Source: Acidocella aromatica
GTDB lineage: Bacteria; Pseudomonadota; Alphaproteobacteria; Acetobacterales; Acetobacteraceae
NCBI RefSeq assembly: GCF_014201825.1
Contig: NZ_JACHFJ010000009.1
Location: 1-64,000 of the forward strand
Direction of reading: 5' to 3'
DNA length: 64,000 nt
Below the pieces are notes generated by a model. It was not told where the DNA came from and did not search any database. It worked only from the letters and a program-made list of their open reading frames with translations. Every line of letters begins with the position of its first letter. The stretch's first letter is position 1. Both the position numbers and the translations under genes were made by a program. Shown here piece after piece: positions 43,209 through 60,008 of the stretch.

Positions 43209-43468
43209 GTCCGGCTGGGGTGAGCGTGGGCGCCTGGGTGGCGTTTGCCGAGCTCGCCGCGCCGGTCATGCTGCTCATGTTGGTCATCGGCCTGGCTGTT
43301 GGCATTTTGCAAACAGCCACGCAGGTGAAGGAAGCGTCCATCCCCTTCGTGCTGAAGCTGGCTGGGCTGGCGGCGCTCAGCACCGCCGCCGGGCGGCTGA
43401 TGCTGGGCGGGGTGGAAAGCTACGCCACGCGCCTGTTCCTGGCCATTCCGGGGTTGATTCATGGCTGA
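43205..43468 (+). CDS. Second FliQ-like export gate protein
   Basis: An 87-residue protein with two membrane segments. LMLVIGLAVGILQTATQVKEASIPFV, read within residues 24-49, fits the FliQ pattern G-Q--TQ-E--L-F. It differs strongly from the FliQ at 25790. ATGA overlap with the FliM/N stop and 8-base overlap with flhA make it part of the fliE arm. It may be a subunit of a mixed gate or a functional substitute. Confidence 0.8.
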   Translation: MSPAGVSVGAWVAFAELAAPVMLLMLVIGLAVGILQTATQVKEASIPFVLKLAGLAALSTAAGRLMLGGVESYATRLFLAIPGLIHG

Positions 43469-45560
43469 AGCCGCCGCCTTGCCGCGCCCCGGCGCGCTCA
43501 GCCTCACGCAGCTCTCTGGCCCTATCGTCATCCTGCTGGTGTTGGTGATGCTGGTTATGCCGCTTCCCCCGGCATGCATCTCCTTTCTGTTCGCGCTCAA
43601 CATCTCCGCCGGGCTCGTGATTCTTGGAGCGTCGCTCTACATCCCTTCACCGGCCGAGTTCTCCTCCTTTCCCTCTGTGCTGCTGGCCACCACGCTCATG
43701 CGTCTGGCTCTCAACGTCGCCACCGCGCGCGCCATTCTGCTCAACGGCTATGCCGGACCGGGAGCGGCGGGCAAGGTCATCGAATCCTTTGGCCAGTTCG
43801 CGGTTGGCGGCAATTATGTTGTCGGCGGCATCATCTTCGTTATCCTCATCATCATCAACTTCGTGGTGGTGACGAAGGGCGCCTCCCGCGTGGCCGAGGT
43901 GTCCGCGCGCTTCATGCTGGACAGTTTGCCAGGGCGGCAGATGGCTATTGATGCCGAGATCAATGCCGGCATCCTCTCGCCCCAGGCGGCGGAGCGGCGG
44001 CGCGACATGCTCCGGCGCGAGGCGGATTTTTTTGGCGCCATGGATGGTGCTTCCAAATTCGTGCGCGGCGACGTGGTGGCGGCGATGATCATCCTCGTTG
44101 TCAACATGCTGGGTGGGCTCATCATCGGCACGCTGCAATACGGCCTGCCGCTGGCCGATGCCGCGCGCACCTACACGCTGCTCACGGTGGGCGACGGTCT
44201 GGCCGCGCAGATCCCCTCGCTCACCATCTCCGTCGCCGCCGGTCTGGTGGTGACGCGCGTGGCCACGGGCGAGGATATCGGCGGGCAGATCAAGTCCCAG
44301 CTCTCCAAATATCCGCAGGCGCTGGCCATTGCCGCTGGGCTGACCGGTGCCATCGGGCTGATCCCCGAGATGGCGCATATCCCCTTCCTCGTGCTGGCTG
44401 CCGCGATGGGCACGGCTGCCTGGCGGCTCTCCCGTGCCGCCAACGCGTCCGAGGCCGCCACCGAGGCTGGCAAGGTAGCCGGAGCCGAGGGCAAGCCCGC
44501 CGAGCCGAAAGTGGATTCGCTGGTGGATGTCACCGGCGTCGATCCGCTGGGCATGAATATCGGCTTTGCCCTCACGCCGCTGGTGGGGGCAGGCGAGGGG
44601 CGTCTGCTCAACCGCCTGACAGCCGTGCGCCAGCGCTATGGCCGAGCCATGGGATTTCTGGTGCCCGCTGTGCATATCCGCGATTCATCGGAGCTGAGCG
44701 CCCATGGCTACCGCTTTACCCTGCGCGGAGCGGCCATTGGCGGCGGCGAGGCTTGGCCCGGCCAATGGCTTGCGATCGAGGGGCCCATGGTGGCCGAAAA
44801 GCTGACCGTGGGCCGGGCGGTGAAGGACCCTGCCTTCGGCCAGGCGGCGGTGTGGATTCCGCAGGGCGCGATCCCGGCCGCCGAGGAACTGGGCTACACG
44901 GTGGTGGACGCTCCCTCGGCCATTGCCACGCATTTTGCCGAGATCCTCAAGCGCCACGGCGCCGAGTTGCTTGGCCGCCCGCAGGTGGAGGGGTTGATGA
45001 CCCGTCTGGCCGAGACCACGCCGCGTCTGGCCGAGGATCTGCGTACGAATCTGTCTATTGGGTTGGTGCGCCAGGTGTTGCAGGGGCTGCTGGCCGAGGA
45101 AGTCCCAATCCGCGACTTTGAGCGGATCGCCGAGGCGCTGGTGGAATCGGCCGATGGCGGCGTGAAGGACCCGGAGAAGCTGCTCGCCGCCACCCGTCTG
45201 CGGCTGGGGCGCTTTATCGTTAGCCAGCTTGTGGGCACTGAATCGACGCTGCGCGTGGCCGTGCTGCCGCCCAAGCTGGAGGAGTTGGTCGGCAAGTCCC
45301 TGCGCACCGCCAAGGATGGCGGCATCGGCGCCGAGGTGGAGGCCGAGACGGCGCAGCATCTGCGCGACGCGGCGGTACAGGCGGCGCGGACCATGCGCGC
45401 GAAGGGGGCAAAGCCGGTGCTGGTGGTGCAAGCCGCCATGCGCCGCGCCGTGGCACGCACCGTGCCGGGGATCATTCCAGTGATCGCGCTGGAGGAAATC
45501 CCGGAGACCACGCCGCTGCAAGTCATCACAACCGCCGAGCCGGGAGCCGCCAATGCTTGA
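43461..45560 (+). CDS. flhA: Flagellar export protein FlhA
   Basis: A 699-residue export-gate channel and docking protein. The N-terminal half has about eight membrane segments and the FHIPEP-family motif LMRLALNVATARAILLNGYAG, within residues 76-96, plus GDGLAAQIPSLTISVAAGL. The cytosolic C-terminal half contains the chaperone/substrate platform (PAVHIRDSSELSAHGYRF). Length is normal for the family. Overlaps fliA by 8 bases. Confidence 0.96.
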   Translation: MAEAAALPRPGALSLTQLSGPIVILLVLVMLVMPLPPACISFLFALNISAGLVILGASLYIPSPAEFSSFPSVLLATTLMRLALNVATARAILLNGYAGPGAAGKVIESFGQFAVGGNYVVGGIIFVILIIINFVVVTKGASRVAEVSARFMLDSLPGRQMAIDAEINAGILSPQAAERRRDMLRREADFFGAMDGASKFVRGDVVAAMIILVVNMLGGLIIGTLQYGLPLADAARTYTLLTVGDGLAAQIPSLTISVAAGLVVTRVATGEDIGGQIKSQLSKYPQALAIAAGLTGAIGLIPEMAHIPFLVLAAAMGTAAWRLSRAANASEAATEAGKVAGAEGKPAEPKVDSLVDVTGVDPLGMNIGFALTPLVGAGEGRLLNRLTAVRQRYGRAMGFLVPAVHIRDSSELSAHGYRFTLRGAAIGGGEAWPGQWLAIEGPMVAEKLTVGRAVKDPAFGQAAVWIPQGAIPAAEELGYTVVDAPSAIATHFAEILKRHGAELLGRPQVEGLMTRLAETTPRLAEDLRTNLSIGLVRQVLQGLLAEEVPIRDFERIAEALVESADGGVKDPEKLLAATRLRLGRFIVSQLVGTESTLRVAVLPPKLEELVGKSLRTAKDGGIGAEVEAETAQHLRDAAVQAARTMRAKGAKPVLVVQAAMRRAVARTVPGIIPVIALEEIPETTPLQVITTAEPGAANA

Positions 45561-50445: not shown

Positions 50446-51651
50446 ATGGACTTGTCGCTTTTTACCAGCTTCACCAACTCGCTTGCCGCGCAGGAAGCGC
50501 AGATCAACCAGCTGCAGCAGCAGATTTCCACCGGCCTGGCGGTGCAGACGCCGGATCAGAACCCTGCCGCTTACGAGACCGGTGTGCTGGGCACCAACAT
50601 GGTGAACCAGTTGAATAACGACAACACCACCCAGGCCCAGGTCCAGACCCAGCTCGGCAGCGTGAGTAGCGCCTATACCTCGATGAGCACGTTGTTCGAT
50701 AATGTGCAGAGTATCGTCGAACAGGCGCTGAATGGCACCACCAGTGCTGCGAACATGAATGCCCTGGCCGGGCAGGTTAAGTCGGCATCGCAACAATTGC
50801 TCAGTATCGGCAACACCACGGCCTCGAACGGCACGTATTTGTTCGGCGGTTCGCGCGGGGGGCTGACGCCGTTCCAGGCCAATGCCAATGGCGATATCGT
50901 CTATTTCGGCGATGGCGGAAATTCCCAGGCGACCATTGCTCCGGGCCAGACGGCCAGCACCATCGCCAATGGCGATGTGTTCGTTTCCAGCCTGAGCGGC
51001 GACGGCATTTCCAATGTCACCGCCAGTACCAGCAACACCGGCAGCGGGCAGATCCTGCAACAGGGCGTGGTCAACGCCGCCACAGCCAATGCATTCCAGC
51101 AGGGGAGTTCGGCCATCACCGTCAGCTTCGGCACCGGCAACACCTATACTGCCACGCAGGGGGGCAGCACCATCGCCAGCGGCACGCTGTCCACCAGTAG
51201 CAGCGGCACTTCGCTTCAGCTTGCCGGGGTGGATTACCAGATCACCGGCAGCCCGGCGAATGGCGACAGCTTCACCATCTCTCCCGCGCGTCCGCAATCG
51301 GCCTTTGCACTGCTGCAGAACGTCTATAACGCCCTGGCCAATGCCAACAGCACGCCCTCGCAGGTGGCGCAGACCAACCAGATCCTCAACCAGAGTCTCG
51401 CGGGTTTGGCGCAGTACCAGCAGGCCACTCTGACCGCGCAGGCCCAGAACGGCGTGACCTTGCAGGCCATTTCCGCCGCCTCGACCAGCAACACCGGCCA
51501 AGCCACCGAGGCGCAGACCAATGTGGACAACGCCACTGCCGTGAACACGCCGGTGGCCATCGCCAGCCTGACCCAGACCATGACCGCCTTGCAGGCCGCG
51601 ATGAAAACTTTCGGTACCGTGCAGAGCCTCAGCCTGTTCAACTATCTCTAA
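50446..51651 (+). CDS. flgL: Hook-filament junction protein FlgL
   Basis: A 401-residue hook-associated protein 3. Flagellin-like N-terminus (INQLQQQISTGLAVQTPDQN, within residues 20-40) and C-terminal helices (NTPVAIASLTQTMTALQAAMKTF) flank a variable Thr/Ser-rich centre with a SPANGDSFTI unit like those in flgK. Strong ribosome site AAAGGAGG at 50431-50438. Confidence 0.93.
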   Translation: MDLSLFTSFTNSLAAQEAQINQLQQQISTGLAVQTPDQNPAAYETGVLGTNMVNQLNNDNTTQAQVQTQLGSVSSAYTSMSTLFDNVQSIVEQALNGTTSAANMNALAGQVKSASQQLLSIGNTTASNGTYLFGGSRGGLTPFQANANGDIVYFGDGGNSQATIAPGQTASTIANGDVFVSSLSGDGISNVTASTSNTGSGQILQQGVVNAATANAFQQGSSAITVSFGTGNTYTATQGGSTIASGTLSTSSSGTSLQLAGVDYQITGSPANGDSFTISPARPQSAFALLQNVYNALANANSTPSQVAQTNQILNQSLAGLAQYQQATLTAQAQNGVTLQAISAASTSNTGQATEAQTNVDNATAVNTPVAIASLTQTMTALQAAMKTFGTVQSLSLFNYL

Positions 51652-51661
51652 GGACGCCGCA

Positions 51662-54600
51662 ATGTCGGATACGATTTTCATCGTCGGTTATTACCGCAGC
51701 GGCACTTCGGCGCTTTCCGGCGCCCTGACCCGCGCGGGTGTAAAATTTTATAACGATGCCGACCCAAATGAGCATAACCCGCTAGGCTTCTACGAGATTC
51801 CAGAACTGATCCAGTACGACGTGGATTTGTTCGCGCGCCTGGGCGTGGATTGGACGGATGTGCGCGGCCTGCCCCCGGGCTGGACGGAGCGCGCCGATCT
51901 CAGCGCCTATTGGTCACGGCTGGAGGAAATCATCCGCCGCCGCTTTACCCAGGCGGATAAGCTCTGGGGCCTGAAGCACCCGCATTTGTGCCGTACCTTG
52001 CCAGCCTATGAGCGTGCCGCCCGCCAAGCCGGGCACAAGCCGCATGTGGTGCATATCTTCCGCGACCCATGGACAGCCGCCGCCAGCCAACAGCGCAAGA
52101 ACGGGCTGAGCCGCGCTCACGCCTTGCTGTTGTGGATGACCTACGCCACCTCCGGCGAGCGATTGGCGCGGCATCTGCCGCGCAGTTGGACCACCTACCA
52201 GGATTTGCTGGGCGAACCCGAGGCGCAGCTGCGCCGGATCGTCGAGGAGCTGGACCTGCCCATCGCCGAGCGCGGGCTGAAGGATGCCGCAGGCTACCTC
52301 ACCACCCAGCTCAACCGCAGCGAGCCGCTGCCGCGAGAAGGGCTGTGCCGCCCGCTGGACGACCTGGTCTCCCGCACCTGGGAGGCGATCTTGGCGCGGG
52401 ATTTCTTGCCCGAAATCTGGGACGGTTTTGCCGAAAAGGCGGCGGATCTGGTTGGTTTCCTCACCGAGATCGGCGCCAGCCGTGGGCGGGCCTTCCCCGC
52501 CATGGGCGGCTCCTTCACCCAGGTGGTCGGGCAGGCCAAGGCTGGTGGGAGCGTTACCGCGCTCCGTCCGCCCGAACGCAGCGATGATGGCGCGCGGATC
52601 CGCCTCCAAAGCTTGAAGGAGGCGGCTGGTACATTGCCGCGTCTGGCCGTGGTTATCGCCGCGCCAAGCGGCCGCGCCCATGCGGTGAACGACACGCTGG
52701 CGGCGCTGGACGAACAATGGGAAAAGCCTGCCAGCATCGTCATTCTAGCCGCCGAGACGCTGGAGCTTGAGGGCCGCAGTGTGACCGCCGTGGCCCAGGA
52801 GCCGGAGGCGATGACCCGCGCCATCTGCGCCGCGTTGAACGAGGCGGCGGCCGATTACGTCGCCGTGCTCAATGCGGGTGATACAATCTCCCCCGATGCC
52901 TGCCTGCGCTTCGCCCTGCACGCCGCCGCCACGGGGGCGGAGATGCTGTATTGCGATGAGATCGTGCCCCGCGAGAACGGCCATTGGGTACGGCACAAGC
53001 CCAGCTGGGACATCACGCGCCTGCGTCAGGCCGCTTATCTGGGCGATTGGGTGTGGTACGGCGCCCGTACGGTGCAGCGCCTGGGCGGGTTCGACCCGGC
53101 GCGTGCCGGGGCGGAGGAGTTCGACTTCCAGCTCCGCATCGCCGAGGCCGGCGCCAAGGTGGAGCGCGTGCCGGAAGCCCTGTTCACCCGCAGTCCGCAG
53201 AGCCGGCGCGACGATATCCGCGCCGATGTGTTCTGCGCCCGCGCGGCCGCGGCGGTGCAGGAGCATCTGCAGCGCGCCGGGCTGCCTGCCGAGGTGCAGA
53301 ACCGCCAGCATATGGGGCTGTTCCATCACATGCGCATGGTGGCCGACCCTGGCACCAGCATCATCATGCTGTGTGATGATGGAGAGATCCCGGCGCTCGA
53401 CCGCTGGCTCACAACGCTGCTCAGCGGCCAGCCGCTCACCGGCCCGGTGATCCTAGCCGGAGCGGCGCTGAGTACCGGGCTGCAAACCTACCTCACCGAG
53501 GTATCCCGCCAGACCGAGGCGCTGGAGGGCAAGGTGCTGGCGGTGCCGCCCGTGCCCGGCCTCACCCAGGCCGAGGCGCTGCGCCAAGCTCTGGCCCTGG
53601 TGACCACGCCCCATGTGGCGGTGCTGGATGTGCGGGCAGAGACGGCAATGCCGCATTGGTTGTCGGCGTTGCGCATGCGTCTGGCCGACCCCGGCGTGGC
53701 GCTGGTGGCGGCGCGCTCGCTGATGCCGCTGGAGGGGGGAAATAAAGCCTTCGCCATGGTGCAGGGCCCCATCGTCATCGGCGCCGATACGCGGCTCGGT
53801 ACCGGGCATATGGCGGAAGATCTGGGCCCTGGCGGTTGGCTGTTGGTGGACCAGGAGGCGAGCGCGCTCGCTCCGCCCGGCCTGCTGGTTCGCACCGCCG
53901 CTCTGGCTGCTTGTGAGTTTCCGGCCCTGAACGGCGATGCGCTGTGGATCGATCTTGGCGCACAGCTCCGCGCTCAGGGGGCGCGGCTGGTATGGACGCC
54001 TGATGTCTCCTTCGTCATGCCCACCGGCACGGTGCATGTGGATGCGGCATCGCAATTCCGCCAGGGCTCGGAGGTGGCGCGGGCGCTGCCCTGGGCCGAC
54101 CCGTATCACCATCCGGCGCTCTCTCTGCATGGCGATCTGCTGGCCGATGAAGCCCGTGCCGGTCTGGTGCCCGCCACCCCCGCCGATCCGCTGGACCTGC
54201 TGGTGACCGGCGAGCCAGGGCCGGGTGCCGCGGTGCTGAATACGGCGCGGACGCTGCGGCGGGATGGCATGTGCTCGGCCGATTGGGCGCCCGAGCGGCC
54301 CAATGCCGCCGAGCTTGGCCGTCGTGCCCCAGCCGCCTGGGTGCGGGTGAACCCGGCCGTGCCGGCGGCCATTCATAGCCAAGCCTATACCGCGCTCTAC
54401 ACCGCCATGCCCGCGGATCTGGAAGCGGCAAGGCCGGTTCTGGCCGAAGCCGCTGGTGTTTATGCCACCTCTCCGGCGCTGGTGGCGCAGTTGCGCAGCC
54501 TGGGCCGCCCCGGTCAAACCGTGGAATTGTGGCGTCCGGCCTTGTCGCGCCATGTTTGGTCCGGCCTGCAACCCGCCACGGGCCTGAACACCAAGCCGCG

Positions 54601-55102
54601 CGTGCTGTGGGTGGATGAGGGCAACACCCCGCAATGGTTCCAGGAGCTGATTTCTTCCACGCTAGAGAACGCATCCTGGATCGTGGTCGAGCGCCCTGGC
54701 GAAACCTATGCCGGTGCCATGGCACGCCTGACACCGCCGGAAACCGAAGCCGCCTGGGCGAATGCCATGGTCGAGCTGGGACCGCAGATCATGGTCCGCC
54801 CGGCCAATACGGAGGCTTATGCCGACCATTATCCCGTACTGCTGGCGGCGGCGGCGGGATGCCATGTTCTGGCGGACGAGCGCTTCGACATTCCGCCCAG
54901 CCTCGGGGCGGCGCGGCTGAAGAACCGTCTGTCGGCGTGGAAGGAGGCGTTGAGTGGCGCCATTGCCGACCTGACGGCTACTCTGGAGCATGGCCGCAAG
55001 GCCCGCCAAGCGGCTTTGGCTCTTCCCGCGAGCGAGGATGCTCTGCCCCCCTGGGTGGATTTCAGCGCGGGCCTCCCTGAGCTGCGGAGTGCGGCGGAAT
55101 GA
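51662..55102 (+). CDS. Sulfotransferase-glycosyltransferase multidomain protein in the flagellar operon
   Basis: An 1146-residue cytosolic protein. Residues 1-290 look like a PAPS-dependent sulfotransferase: a phosphate-binding loop GYYRSGTSALS (9-19) and a second-site motif HIFRDPWTAAASQ (about 131-143). Residues about 325-560 look like a GT2 domain (LNAGDTISPDA, MLYCDEIVP, GGFDPARAGAEEFDFQLRIAEAG read in parts). Residues about 590-820 resemble a second GT2 domain with a degenerate catalytic DxD region (VLDVRAE). About 840-1146 may be GT4-like. It lies between flgL and flgA, overlaps flgA by ATGA, and flagellin follows, so flagellar glycan assembly is likely. Substrate and catalytic activity are inferred. 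Confidence 0.72.
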   Translation: MSDTIFIVGYYRSGTSALSGALTRAGVKFYNDADPNEHNPLGFYEIPELIQYDVDLFARLGVDWTDVRGLPPGWTERADLSAYWSRLEEIIRRRFTQADKLWGLKHPHLCRTLPAYERAARQAGHKPHVVHIFRDPWTAAASQQRKNGLSRAHALLLWMTYATSGERLARHLPRSWTTYQDLLGEPEAQLRRIVEELDLPIAERGLKDAAGYLTTQLNRSEPLPREGLCRPLDDLVSRTWEAILARDFLPEIWDGFAEKAADLVGFLTEIGASRGRAFPAMGGSFTQVVGQAKAGGSVTALRPPERSDDGARIRLQSLKEAAGTLPRLAVVIAAPSGRAHAVNDTLAALDEQWEKPASIVILAAETLELEGRSVTAVAQEPEAMTRAICAALNEAAADYVAVLNAGDTISPDACLRFALHAAATGAEMLYCDEIVPRENGHWVRHKPSWDITRLRQAAYLGDWVWYGARTVQRLGGFDPARAGAEEFDFQLRIAEAGAKVERVPEALFTRSPQSRRDDIRADVFCARAAAAVQEHLQRAGLPAEVQNRQHMGLFHHMRMVADPGTSIIMLCDDGEIPALDRWLTTLLSGQPLTGPVILAGAALSTGLQTYLTEVSRQTEALEGKVLAVPPVPGLTQAEALRQALALVTTPHVAVLDVRAETAMPHWLSALRMRLADPGVALVAARSLMPLEGGNKAFAMVQGPIVIGADTRLGTGHMAEDLGPGGWLLVDQEASALAPPGLLVRTAALAACEFPALNGDALWIDLGAQLRAQGARLVWTPDVSFVMPTGTVHVDAASQFRQGSEVARALPWADPYHHPALSLHGDLLADEARAGLVPATPADPLDLLVTGEPGPGAAVLNTARTLRRDGMCSADWAPERPNAAELGRRAPAAWVRVNPAVPAAIHSQAYTALYTAMPADLEAARPVLAEAAGVYATSPALVAQLRSLGRPGQTVELWRPALSRHVWSGLQPATGLNTKPRVLWVDEGNTPQWFQELISSTLENASWIVVERPGETYAGAMARLTPPETEAAWANAMVELGPQIMVRPANTEAYADHYPVLLAAAAGCHVLADERFDIPPSLGAARLKNRLSAWKEALSGAIADLTATLEHGRKARQAALALPASEDALPPWVDFSAGLPELRSAAE

Positions 55103-55791
55103 GCCGCCCGGCGCGCCGCGCCATGGTTTGCGTGCTAGCCGCCTGGCCCGGTTTGGCTTTGCCGGGTTGGGCCTGGGCCGGGCAGGACCCGGATGCGGTA
55201 AGCGCCGCGGTGCGTCAGGCGGCGCAAATGGTAACGCCGCCCGACGCCACGATCAGCTTGGGGCCGGTGAACGGGGCGAAATACATGCAGGCCTGCACCG
55301 CTCCGCTTGGCGTGAACATCAGCGGTGTGGCCCCCTATGAGCAGGCGGCGGTGCATTGTCCCGCGCCGGGCTGGACGCTCTATGTCTCCGTCACCGTGGC
55401 GCAGAGCGAGGCTGTGGTGGTGACGGCGCATCCGGTGGTGGCGGGGCAAACCCTGGCCGCCGGAGACCTCGTCATGCGGCGCGAGCCGGTGCAACTCTTC
55501 GCCGGGCGGCAGATCTACGCGGACCCGGCCCAACTCGTGGGCGCCAGTGTGATGATGTCTCTGGCCGCGGGCATGGTCATCACCCAGGATTCGGTACAGG
55601 CTCCGCTCGTCATCAAGGCCGGGCAGACCGTGACGGTGCAGGTTATCAGCGGCGGCGTGCTGCTGTCCGTCAACGCCGTGGCGCAGCAAGCCGGGCGCAT
55701 TGGCGATACGGTTCTGCTTACCAACCCCTCCTCCGGGCGGCGCTTCTCCGCTGAGGTTACGGCACATGGGCCGGTGGTGCAGCTGCAGTAA
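55099..55791 (+). CDS. flgA: P-ring assembly chaperone FlgA
   Basis: A 230-residue periplasmic chaperone with a signal peptide (cleavage near GWAWA, residue 27) and a C-terminal SAF-like/FlgA domain: HPVVAGQTLAAGDLVMRREP, within residues 113-132, and LVIKAGQTVTVQVISGGVLL. It overlaps the glycosyltransferase gene by ATGA. It is unusual for flgA to be in the fliE arm away from flgI. Confidence 0.92.
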   Translation: MSRPARRAMVCVLAAWPGLALPGWAWAGQDPDAVSAAVRQAAQMVTPPDATISLGPVNGAKYMQACTAPLGVNISGVAPYEQAAVHCPAPGWTLYVSVTVAQSEAVVVTAHPVVAGQTLAAGDLVMRREPVQLFAGRQIYADPAQLVGASVMMSLAAGMVITQDSVQAPLVIKAGQTVTVQVISGGVLLSVNAVAQQAGRIGDTVLLTNPSSGRRFSAEVTAHGPVVQLQ

Positions 55792-55899: not shown

Positions 55900-57396
55900 A
55901 TGTCGGCCGTAGGTTCCATTATGACCAATACCGGTGCACTGTCCGCGCTCAACTCCATCTCGAACACCACCACGACCAACAACAACCTGGAAAGCCAGCT
56001 TTCCAGCGGCCTGTCCATCAACTCTCCGTCTAACAACCCGGCCGGCTACATCACCGCGCAGGGCTTCACCTCCCAGCTGAACGGCCTGACGCAGGCTGTG
56101 TCCAACGCCAACCAGGGCGTCTCCCTGCTACAGACGGCGCAGGGCGCCATCACCCAGCAGGTCAGCGTTGTGCAGCAGCTCAACTCCATTTCCGTGCAGG
56201 CCGCCAACGGCACGCAGACCGCCGCTGAATCGCAGTCCCTGCAGACCCTGGCCAGCCAGCTGACCAGCCAAGTCTCCACCATCGCCAAGCAGACGCAGTT
56301 CAACAATATCAGCCTGCTCGACGGCTCTTTCCAGGGTGTGCAGTTCCAGGTTGGCGCCAATGAGGGGCAGACGATGAGCCTCTCTATTTCCAACACCAAT
56401 GCCAGCGCCATCGGCATGTGGCATTCCTCGGCCGGTGCCAATTACAAGGGCACCAATGGCACGGCCACGAATGGTAAGACGGGCAGCGCCGCCATCACGC
56501 TGGGGGCGCCGGCTTCCACGCTGGGGGCTTTTACGGCGGGTACCGCCACCATCACCGGCGCCAATGGCCAGACCGAGGCGGTGACCTCCAAGGCTGGTGA
56601 ATCCGCCGCGTCTTTGGCTTCGGCGATCAACAACCTGTCCAGCCAGGCTGGTGTGCAGGCTCAGGCTCATACCCAGGCCACCTTCCAGCTGAAAGCAGGC
56701 GGCAGCGGCCAGTATAAGTTCAGCATCCAGGCCGCGAGCAGCGGCGCCACCACGATCGGCGGCAAGCAGAACATCGTTGCCTCCTCGGCGGCGGGTGTGG
56801 TGTCCGAGATCAACAGCCAGTCCTCGACCAGCGGTATCGCCGCCTCGCTCGACAAGAACGGCAACCTCGTGCTGACTCAGTCCGCTGGCGAGAACATCAA
56901 CATCACTGGCGCCAGCTCCGGCTCGCTGACGGCGGTGGATTCCACCGGCACCGCCACGGGTGCGGTGATCAAGACTGGCGCTGCTTCCGCGGTTATCCAG
57001 GGCCAGCTGCAGCTGCAGTCCTCTGGTGCGTTCTCGGTCACCAGTGGTTCGGCCATTGGTGTGAAGGGCACTTCGAGCCTCGCAGATCTGGGCGATATCA
57101 ACGTGTCCAGCACCAGCGGCGCCAATGCCGCGATCAATGTCGTGAAGTACGCGCTGGCCACGCTGAACAACCAGGGCGGCACGCTGGGTGCCGTGCAGCA
57201 GAGCCTTACCGCCAACATTAACAACATGAACACCACCAGCCAGAATCTCACCACCGCCCTGGGCGTGGTGCAGGATGCCAACATCCCGGCTGTCAGCACT
57301 CAGCTGACCCAGTCGCAGATCCAGGCGCAGGCTGGTGTTGCGGCGCTCAAGGCTTCCACCCAGCTGCAGCAGTCGTACACCTCGCTGCTGCCGTAA
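55900..57396 (+). CDS. fliC: Flagellin
   Basis: A 498-residue filament protein. N-terminal D0/D1 helices (residues 10-150: LESQLSSGLSINSPSNNPAG, QGVSLLQTAQGAITQQVSVV) and the C-terminal helix (TQSQIQAQAGVAALKASTQL, near 472-492) are conserved and lack Cys. The centre (about 170-400) is a Ser/Thr/Ala/Gly-rich, variable surface region suited to O-glycosylation. It has its own likely promoter and a terminator. Confidence 0.97.
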   Translation: MSAVGSIMTNTGALSALNSISNTTTTNNNLESQLSSGLSINSPSNNPAGYITAQGFTSQLNGLTQAVSNANQGVSLLQTAQGAITQQVSVVQQLNSISVQAANGTQTAAESQSLQTLASQLTSQVSTIAKQTQFNNISLLDGSFQGVQFQVGANEGQTMSLSISNTNASAIGMWHSSAGANYKGTNGTATNGKTGSAAITLGAPASTLGAFTAGTATITGANGQTEAVTSKAGESAASLASAINNLSSQAGVQAQAHTQATFQLKAGGSGQYKFSIQAASSGATTIGGKQNIVASSAAGVVSEINSQSSTSGIAASLDKNGNLVLTQSAGENINITGASSGSLTAVDSTGTATGAVIKTGAASAVIQGQLQLQSSGAFSVTSGSAIGVKGTSSLADLGDINVSSTSGANAAINVVKYALATLNNQGGTLGAVQQSLTANINNMNTTSQNLTTALGVVQDANIPAVSTQLTQSQIQAQAGVAALKASTQLQQSYTSLLP

Positions 57397-59245: not shown

Positions 59246-59547
59246 CCAACACCATCCCCTCCCTGCCGACGGTATCTTCATCGGCTGTCATGAATGACTC
59301 TTCAACCGCGCCCACGAGCACCAAGCCGAATGCCGCGGCTGAGACCGCGCCACAAACCGAGGCCGTGACATTGAGCGACGCCGCACAGACCACCACCAAG
59401 CTGCTCTCCGCCGCACAGCAGTCGAACGGGGTGGACCAGACGACAGTTGCCCGCATTCGCAATGCGCTTGCCTCGGGCAGTTATAATGTGGCGCCGGAGG
59501 ATTTGGCGCAGGCGATGGCCACAGTACTGAAGGCGACGGGCAAATGA
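59242..59547 (+). CDS. flgM: Anti-sigma-28 factor FlgM
   Basis: A 101-residue protein, Thr/Ser/Ala-rich in the first half and with the conserved FlgM C-terminus: VTLSDAAQTTTKLLSAAQQS and VDQTTVARIRNALASGSYNV, followed by EDLAQAMATVL. It should hold the short FliA at 45553 inactive until export. It overlaps fliS and the following FlgN-like gene. Confidence 0.88.
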   Translation: MTNTIPSLPTVSSSAVMNDSSTAPTSTKPNAAAETAPQTEAVTLSDAAQTTTKLLSAAQQSNGVDQTTVARIRNALASGSYNVAPEDLAQAMATVLKATGK

Positions 59548-60008
59548 GCATCACCGGCCAATTCCGTTCCCTGGATATTAAGCTGGAAGCGCAGCCGATT
59601 TCTGACATGCTGGCCCATGGCCTGGAACTGGCCGAGAACCTTGGCCGCAAGCTTCATAACCTTGACGATTTGATGCTCACTGGCAGGCCAAATGAAATCT
59701 CGGATGCCGCCGCCGCAGTGGAGTGGGCGCTCAAGGATGCTTCTCCCACCTTTGCGGAGATCGCCGAAACCGTGAGCAGGCTCGGTGCCTCCAACTTGAT
59801 GACAGCGGCGGAACAGCTGCGGAGGATCCAGGAAGAGGATGCCGCCGGGCTGGCCGAGGCGCTGCGCGGCGCACTGGCCCGGTTCGCCAAGCGGTCGTTC
59901 AGCGCCAATAAGCGGGCGCAGCAATTCAACAGGGGGTTGAGTGCCGCGCTTCAATCCCTCCAGGCACTTGGCATGCAGGAGGGCGGCAGGCTGATCGCGG
60001 AAGCCTGA
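59544..60008 (+). CDS. FlgN-like export chaperone
   Basis: A 154-residue all-helical, Ala/Leu-rich protein starting in the flgM stop (ATGA). Position immediately after flgM, size and helical form fit FlgN, the chaperone for FlgK and FlgL. No sequence motif proves it, so flgN is a placement-based suggestion. The C-terminus has AQQFNRGLSAALQSLQALGM, which resembles the FlgN C-terminal substrate-binding helix. Confidence 0.55.
   Translation: MSITGQFRSLDIKLEAQPISDMLAHGLELAENLGRKLHNLDDLMLTGRPNEISDAAAAVEWALKDASPTFAEIAETVSRLGASNLMTAAEQLRRIQEEDAAGLAEALRGALARFAKRSFSANKRAQQFNRGLSAALQSLQALGMQEGGRLIAEA

Follow-up and report, generated by a model that had tools for sequence, protein, structure and literature searches.

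The stretch of DNA analysed here (the window, 64,000 nt at full length) lies on contig 9 of the 2.88-Mb genome of Acidocella aromatica (G000) and contains a flagellar gene cluster, in which a gene for a four-domain sulfotransferase/glycosyltransferase-like (ST-GT) protein is found between flgL and flgA. The most defensible claim is that this gene is a conserved, type-specific flagellar sulfotransferase candidate. The genes that bear on the claim are listed below.

51662-55102, forward strand: ST-GT gene, encoding four domains in 1146 aa, with orthologs found
50446-51651, forward strand: flgL, the 5' neighbour of the ST-GT gene in every copy examined (Pfam and NCBIfam)
55099-55791, forward strand: flgA, the 3' neighbour in every copy examined (Pfam and NCBIfam)
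55900-57396, forward strand: flagellin gene fliC, candidate acceptor, 5.0% charged residues and no Arg
43461-45560, forward strand: flhA, used as the marker for flagellar system type

The ST-GT gene begins 10 nt after the end of flgL, and the start of flgA overlaps its end by 4 nt. An earlier note on this DNA had described a gene of 1146 codons between flgL and flgA, coupled to flgA, and the frame, the flanks and the 4-nt overlap were all confirmed. The 1146-aa frame, the orthologs and purifying selection rule out a chance frame or annotation artefact, and the flgL-flgA position in many genomes rules out a lone insertion in one genome. With flanks identified by searches using the flagellar proteins of the window, the gene was found between flgL and flgA in all 31 copies with both flanks, from four genera in two families (the window; L003, L004, L005, L006, L010, L068, L069 and L082; L141, L147 and L148; L165 and L166; L205-L219, L223 and L224; the repeats L081, L220 and L221 are uncounted). 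Copies with one flank (L007, L222 and L142) agree, and flgA adjoins the gene in G019, G002 and G023 (flgA side only); the flanks in G026 and G031 are outside the count. The order flgK-flgL-ST-GT gene-flgA is present in G316, G706, G1036 and G1009, and in G316, G1036 and G1009 the slot is kept with fliC elsewhere in the cluster. The tie to flagella drawn in the earlier note is therefore upheld, the gene being found at flagellar loci rather than mainly away from them. Two genomes, G061 (A. facilis; L081 and L082) and G004 (L147 and L148), contain two type-A flagellar clusters (the type of the window) with one ST-GT copy each. No fliC was seen beyond flgA in the stretches of L215 (G025) and L148 (G004), unlike most Acidocella clusters.

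Within the genus, 31 of the 38 genomes carry the ST-GT gene (30 of 37 when counted at 55% identity or more, plus G061), four of these copies being cut by contig ends (G026, G027, G031 and G036). The copy in G002 (L022) has one in-frame TAA. Among the seven genomes lacking the gene, two have an FlhA of another type (G029, 98% complete; G020, 77%), two have a same-type flgA-fliC but the contig ends at the slot (G016 and G030), and the remaining three (G005, G008 and G028; 73-82% complete) gave no match for FlhA or flgA. Above the genus the searches covered samples of genomes, with no more than two candidates scored in each genome for the order, class and phylum. In the order, the gene was found in 17 of 299 genomes, comprising 15 of the genus together with G331 and G316; within the genus of G316 it was found in 3 of 13 genomes, one copy being cut. 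Among 385 genomes of the class the whole gene was found in the A. aromatica genome only, with 14 others matching in the sulfotransferase part only, and among 398 genomes of the phylum it was found in the A. aromatica genome, G1036 and G1009 (the latter two from another family), with 15 others again matching in the sulfotransferase part only. Copies were seen in three genera belonging to one family and in a single genus of the second.

This distribution follows the flagellar system type. A search of the order sample with the window FlhA gave 236 matches. In 16 genomes FlhA is 57-100% identical (weakest E-value (E) 6.6e-229) and all 16 carry the ST-GT gene, while the next match has E 3.8e-134, with at most 42% identity among the matches listed, and the gene was found in none of the 220 order genomes with only a distant FlhA. 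In one further genome, G032, the gene was found but the search gave no FlhA; the contig with the gene begins at motB. The type-B clusters of G029, G207 and G129 contain no ST-GT gene in the 20-35 kb examined, and neither of the two Acidocella genomes of the other type (G029 and G020) carries it. In the FlhA tree, which includes G1036 and sets apart G030 (slot cut by a contig end), the types separate with 100/100 support on long branches. The ST-GT gene tree and the FlgL tree have 10 of 12 splits in common, the others having support of 56 or less, and relatives of the G316 FlgL at E 1e-6 were found only in G316, G706 and G331 among 28 chosen genomes. The ST-GT gene is inherited with the flagellum type, not with the species. 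In G029 (L149; FlhA 36% identical) and G020 (L123), another flagellar system type is found in place of the usual one, an apparent replacement of the whole flagellum within the genus.

A surface-polysaccharide enzyme that is merely co-regulated in the flagellar operon, for example in capsule or lipopolysaccharide sulfation coupled to motility, might look similar, and multi-domain proteins with a sulfotransferase and two GT2 domains are indeed encoded in other genomes with no flagellar genes beside them; the nearest relative of the ST-GT protein in its own genome is also a GT2-GT2 protein encoded elsewhere. This explanation is improbable given that the gene is inherited together with one flagellar system type, also where one genome has two clusters.

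The features of the N-terminal domain are listed below, with invariance taken from an ortholog alignment of 20 rows extending down to 32% identity.

51662-52501, forward strand: sulfotransferase domain, residues 1-280
51683-51715, forward strand: 5'-phosphosulfate-binding (PSB) loop VGYYRSGTSAL, residues 8-18; Y10-S16 and L18 invariant in 20/20 rows
51974-51985, forward strand: KHPH, residues 105-108; invariant in 20/20 rows
52061-52087, forward strand: 3'-phosphate-binding segment R134...S142; R134, P136, A140 and S142 invariant in 20/20 rows

Further invariant residues are Q143 and K146-N147-L149-RAHA154. The window protein scores 31.9 bits against Pfam Sulfotransfer_3 (PF13469; cut-off 27), and among the orthologs G331 lies above this cut-off (32.8 bits) and G316 below it (20.7 bits). 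A profile alignment pairs the PSB loop and the R...S segment with SULT7A1 (E 0.034; these segments score weakly alone). The domain was predicted on its own, since the best 50 rows of the whole-model search (VIA) all fell in the GT-B region, and its model has the fold of sulfotransferases using 3'-phosphoadenosine 5'-phosphosulfate (PAPS), the best fold match being TPST1/2 at 13-18% identity. The A. aromatica genome encodes an adenosine 5'-phosphosulfate (APS) kinase domain, and therefore PAPS should be available; an APS kinase match is present in 36 of 38 genus genomes, being weak in G012 and G028. Sulfation is the best-supported predicted activity of the ST-GT protein.

Protein-tyrosine sulfotransferases are the nearest match of the sulfotransferase model, and direct protein sulfation is therefore a rival explanation, in which a TPST-like activity would modify FlgL or another axial protein on Tyr (or on Ser/Thr), with the three glycosyltransferase (GT)-like domains as recognition modules only. 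We consider it a rather unlikely alternative.

Purifying selection acts on each of the four domains. In the comparison with L004, the ratio of non-synonymous to synonymous substitution rates (dN/dS) is 0.079 for the sulfotransferase, 0.166 for the first GT-A domain, 0.148 for the second and 0.123 for the GT-B region (FlgL, 0.082; FliC, 0.131). Of the four domains, the sulfotransferase is the most conserved by identity in 17 of 19 rows, and its dN/dS is the lowest in two of the three comparisons. These values, together with the intact PAPS-binding motifs, argue against an enzyme that only transfers sugar, in which flagellin or hook-associated proteins would be glycosylated by the GT-A domain, next to a sulfotransferase that is inactive or uses another donor. 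The invariant GT-A core described below would fit such an enzyme, as would the well-known GT genes of flagellin islands, described in the accessible part of one survey (PMC5109656), but we give the idea little credence.

The remainder of the protein is divided as follows.

52637-53341, forward strand: first GT-A (GT2-like) domain, residues about 326-560, borders from the model and alignment
Within it, forward strand: motifs AGD (405-407), DE (432-433) and G.EE (483-486)
53342-54181, forward strand: second GT-A-like domain, residues about 561-840, acidic motif not conserved, borders approximate
54182-55081, forward strand: GT-B (GT4 fold) region, residues about 841-1140

In the first GT-A domain AGD407, DE433, R444-KP447, GDWVWY466 and G483-EE486 are invariant. 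A Foldseek search with the model matched the GT-A fold (chondroitin polymerase K4CP, E 3.3e-13 over 589 columns; 6p61, template modelling (TM) score 0.75), and this match was assigned to the first GT-A region via Pfam and an alignment with the GT2-GT2 paralog in the same genome (842 aa, contig 8), in which D407 falls on the last Asp of DHDD and E485-E486 on QD. In the second GT-A-like domain LDxRA and WxDL differ between rows, no conserved DxD-type or ED motif was found across the alignment, and the paralog alignment is uncertain in this part. GT domains typically carry standard acidic pairs, which in GT4 enzymes take the form of the EX7E motif. The C-terminal region is predicted to adopt the GT-B fold, and here the EX7E motif was not found, there being no invariant Glu pair before G1066, with D1055 and Y1057 invariant in its place. 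Two of the three GT-like domains thus look catalytically dead from their sequences.

The four-domain layout and the sulfotransferase and GT folds anticipated in the earlier note were recovered by fold prediction (sulfotransferase, GT-A and GT-B), and its reading of a degenerate second GT2-like domain agrees with an acidic motif that is not conserved across rows. The fold claims rest on predicted models because sequence searches of solved structures gave no strong match: the full protein retrieved unrelated Golgi proteins only (E 0.65 and above), profile A2 one designed peptide (E 0.35), and profile A3 SULT7A1, only at the E-value given above. NCBIfam has no model for the ST-GT protein.

The degenerate appearance of two of the three GT domains and the position of the gene beside flgL and flgA could also point to a structural role, as a chaperone-like pseudo-enzyme that binds FlgL or flagellin in the course of export or of assembling the junction. 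The intact PAPS site and the conserved GT-A core speak against this, leaving it only a slim chance.

Candidate acceptors are rich in hydroxyl residues, with Ser plus Thr making up 25-33% of FliC, FlgL, FliD and FlgK. Type-A flagellins (n=11) have 3.0-5.5% charged residues, and that of the window is without Arg. Flagellins of the other type have 4.4-7.9% in G080, G091, G102, G145 and G320, and flagellins of G273, G190 and G188 have 11-20%. Many members of the family have charge-poor flagellins. G1036 (L165 and L195) has a type-A flagellin with 5.1% charged residues and another with 14.4%, its several flagellins suggesting more than one flagellar system.

We propose, at about even confidence, that the ST-GT protein serves one flagellar system type as its dedicated modifying enzyme, with its activity and acceptor putative. 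It would be cytoplasmic and act before export on axial proteins (FliC, FlgL or other hook-filament proteins). The first GT-A domain would use a nucleotide-sugar as donor to glycosylate a Ser/Thr-rich axial protein, and the sulfotransferase domain would transfer sulfate from PAPS to the protein-linked sugar, while the second GT-A domain and the GT-B region, which lack textbook catalytic residues, may hold the acceptor or a chaperone-bound subunit. Acidocella lives in acid habitats. A sulfate ester would still be negative at an acid pH where carboxylates are not, and could keep charge-poor filaments soluble and apart; an acid-stable sulfate would thus seem sensible on such filaments. The sulfotransferase step is the best supported and the sugar step is less sure, and the combined glycosylation and sulfation of flagellin, as first proposed in the earlier note, is plausible.

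Several observations weigh against this proposal. Flagellins of the other type without the ST-GT gene are also charge-poor (4.9-6.5%; seven g51 and G029, n=8, compared with 3.0-5.5% for type A), and therefore charge alone does not explain the gene, and flagellin charge is ruled out as a distinguishing feature. G1036 has further flagellins but only one ST-GT copy was found (two candidates scored). No nucleotide-sugar gene was recognised among ten proteins scanned, the rest of the window not having been systematically scanned. In the more distant pair with L007, dN/dS of the sulfotransferase (0.286) exceeds that of the second GT-A domain (0.271). G010 and G019 (82-83% complete) lack an APS kinase match and that of G012 is weak, yet all three carry the ST-GT gene. 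GT2 profiles fall below cut-off for the first GT-A domain (22.5 versus 27 bits and 15.1 versus 23.3 bits), and the Foldseek match to polymerases with two GT-A domains has low TM-scores. GT2 enzymes use a nucleotide-binding Asp, and the acid aligned to it is not clearly kept in the 4 most distant of the 20 rows.

Directly after flgM in the window (59544-60008) lies a 154-aa frame, which also adjoins flgM in many Acidocella clusters but was not seen in the G316 and G1036 stretches examined. It matches no Pfam or NCBIfam family above cut-off, and its position suggests an FlgN-like export chaperone.

Flagellar modification with many sugars is known, and in the open-access literature searched (of partial coverage, and thus weak proof of absence) no bacterial flagellar sulfotransferase was found and sulfate was reported on archaeal filaments only. 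In the main text of two flagellin-island surveys, the terms 'sulfotransferase' and 'sulfat' occur 0 times (PMC4875605, PMC5109656). We judge it an evenly balanced proposition that bacterial filament or junction proteins are sulfated in the cytoplasm (on glycan or tyrosine) by one fused constituent enzyme, possibly providing an acid-proof charge. If true, this would give the sulfated archaellum its first counterpart in bacteria. The ST-GT gene would point to filament charge as a reason for modification at low pH, and may serve as a genomic marker separating the flagellar system types of these bacteria. The gene is fixed and type-specific, and the question is therefore directly testable in a culturable acidophile.

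A parallel in outcome is Halobacterium, where, according to the available part of the report, archaellin N-glycans are sulfated by two separate sulfotransferases, VNG1056C and VNG1057C, and loss of sulfation had little effect on motility (PMC11980604). The proposed likeness is a sulfated glycan on a swimming filament; the Halobacterium archaella differ in being archaeal, with an N-glycan pathway, two separate enzymes and an unrelated filament. With PAPS sulfotransferases (Sulfotransfer_3; TPST1/2 by fold) the ST-GT protein has in common the fold, the PSB loop and the 3'-phosphate segment; unlike them, it has three GT-like domains in the same chain and is linked to a flagellar system. The tandem GT-A polymerases K4CP (2z86) and PmHS2 (8vh8) likewise have two GT-A domains per chain, but TM-scores are low, and the ST-GT protein lacks a conserved acidic motif in the second GT-A domain and has a sulfotransferase and a GT-B region in addition.

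Fusions of a sulfotransferase with GTs as such are not unique to the flagellar locus. L102, L103, L104 and L108 (sulfotransferase-GT2-GT2) and L109 (sulfotransferase-GT2-GT4) also have an N-terminal sulfotransferase-like region followed by GT domains; in these the GT domains lie far above Pfam cut-offs and the sulfotransferase is below cut-off or unseen by Pfam, and no flagellar neighbours were found in 19-20 kb using the window flagellar proteins as probes. Together with L072, they are large non-flagellar proteins with a sulfotransferase-like N-terminus and either GT2-GT2, GT2 and GT4, or WbsX, GT4 and GT2. Flagellin glycosylation islands (Geobacillus, Enterobacteriaceae and Clostridium) resemble the present locus in having GT2/GT4 genes in a flagellar locus (PMC5109656, in the part of the survey available). 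These islands are variable and multi-gene, whereas the ST-GT candidate is a single fused gene, conserved at flgL-flgA, which forms a constant component of one type of flagellar system instead of varying from strain to strain.
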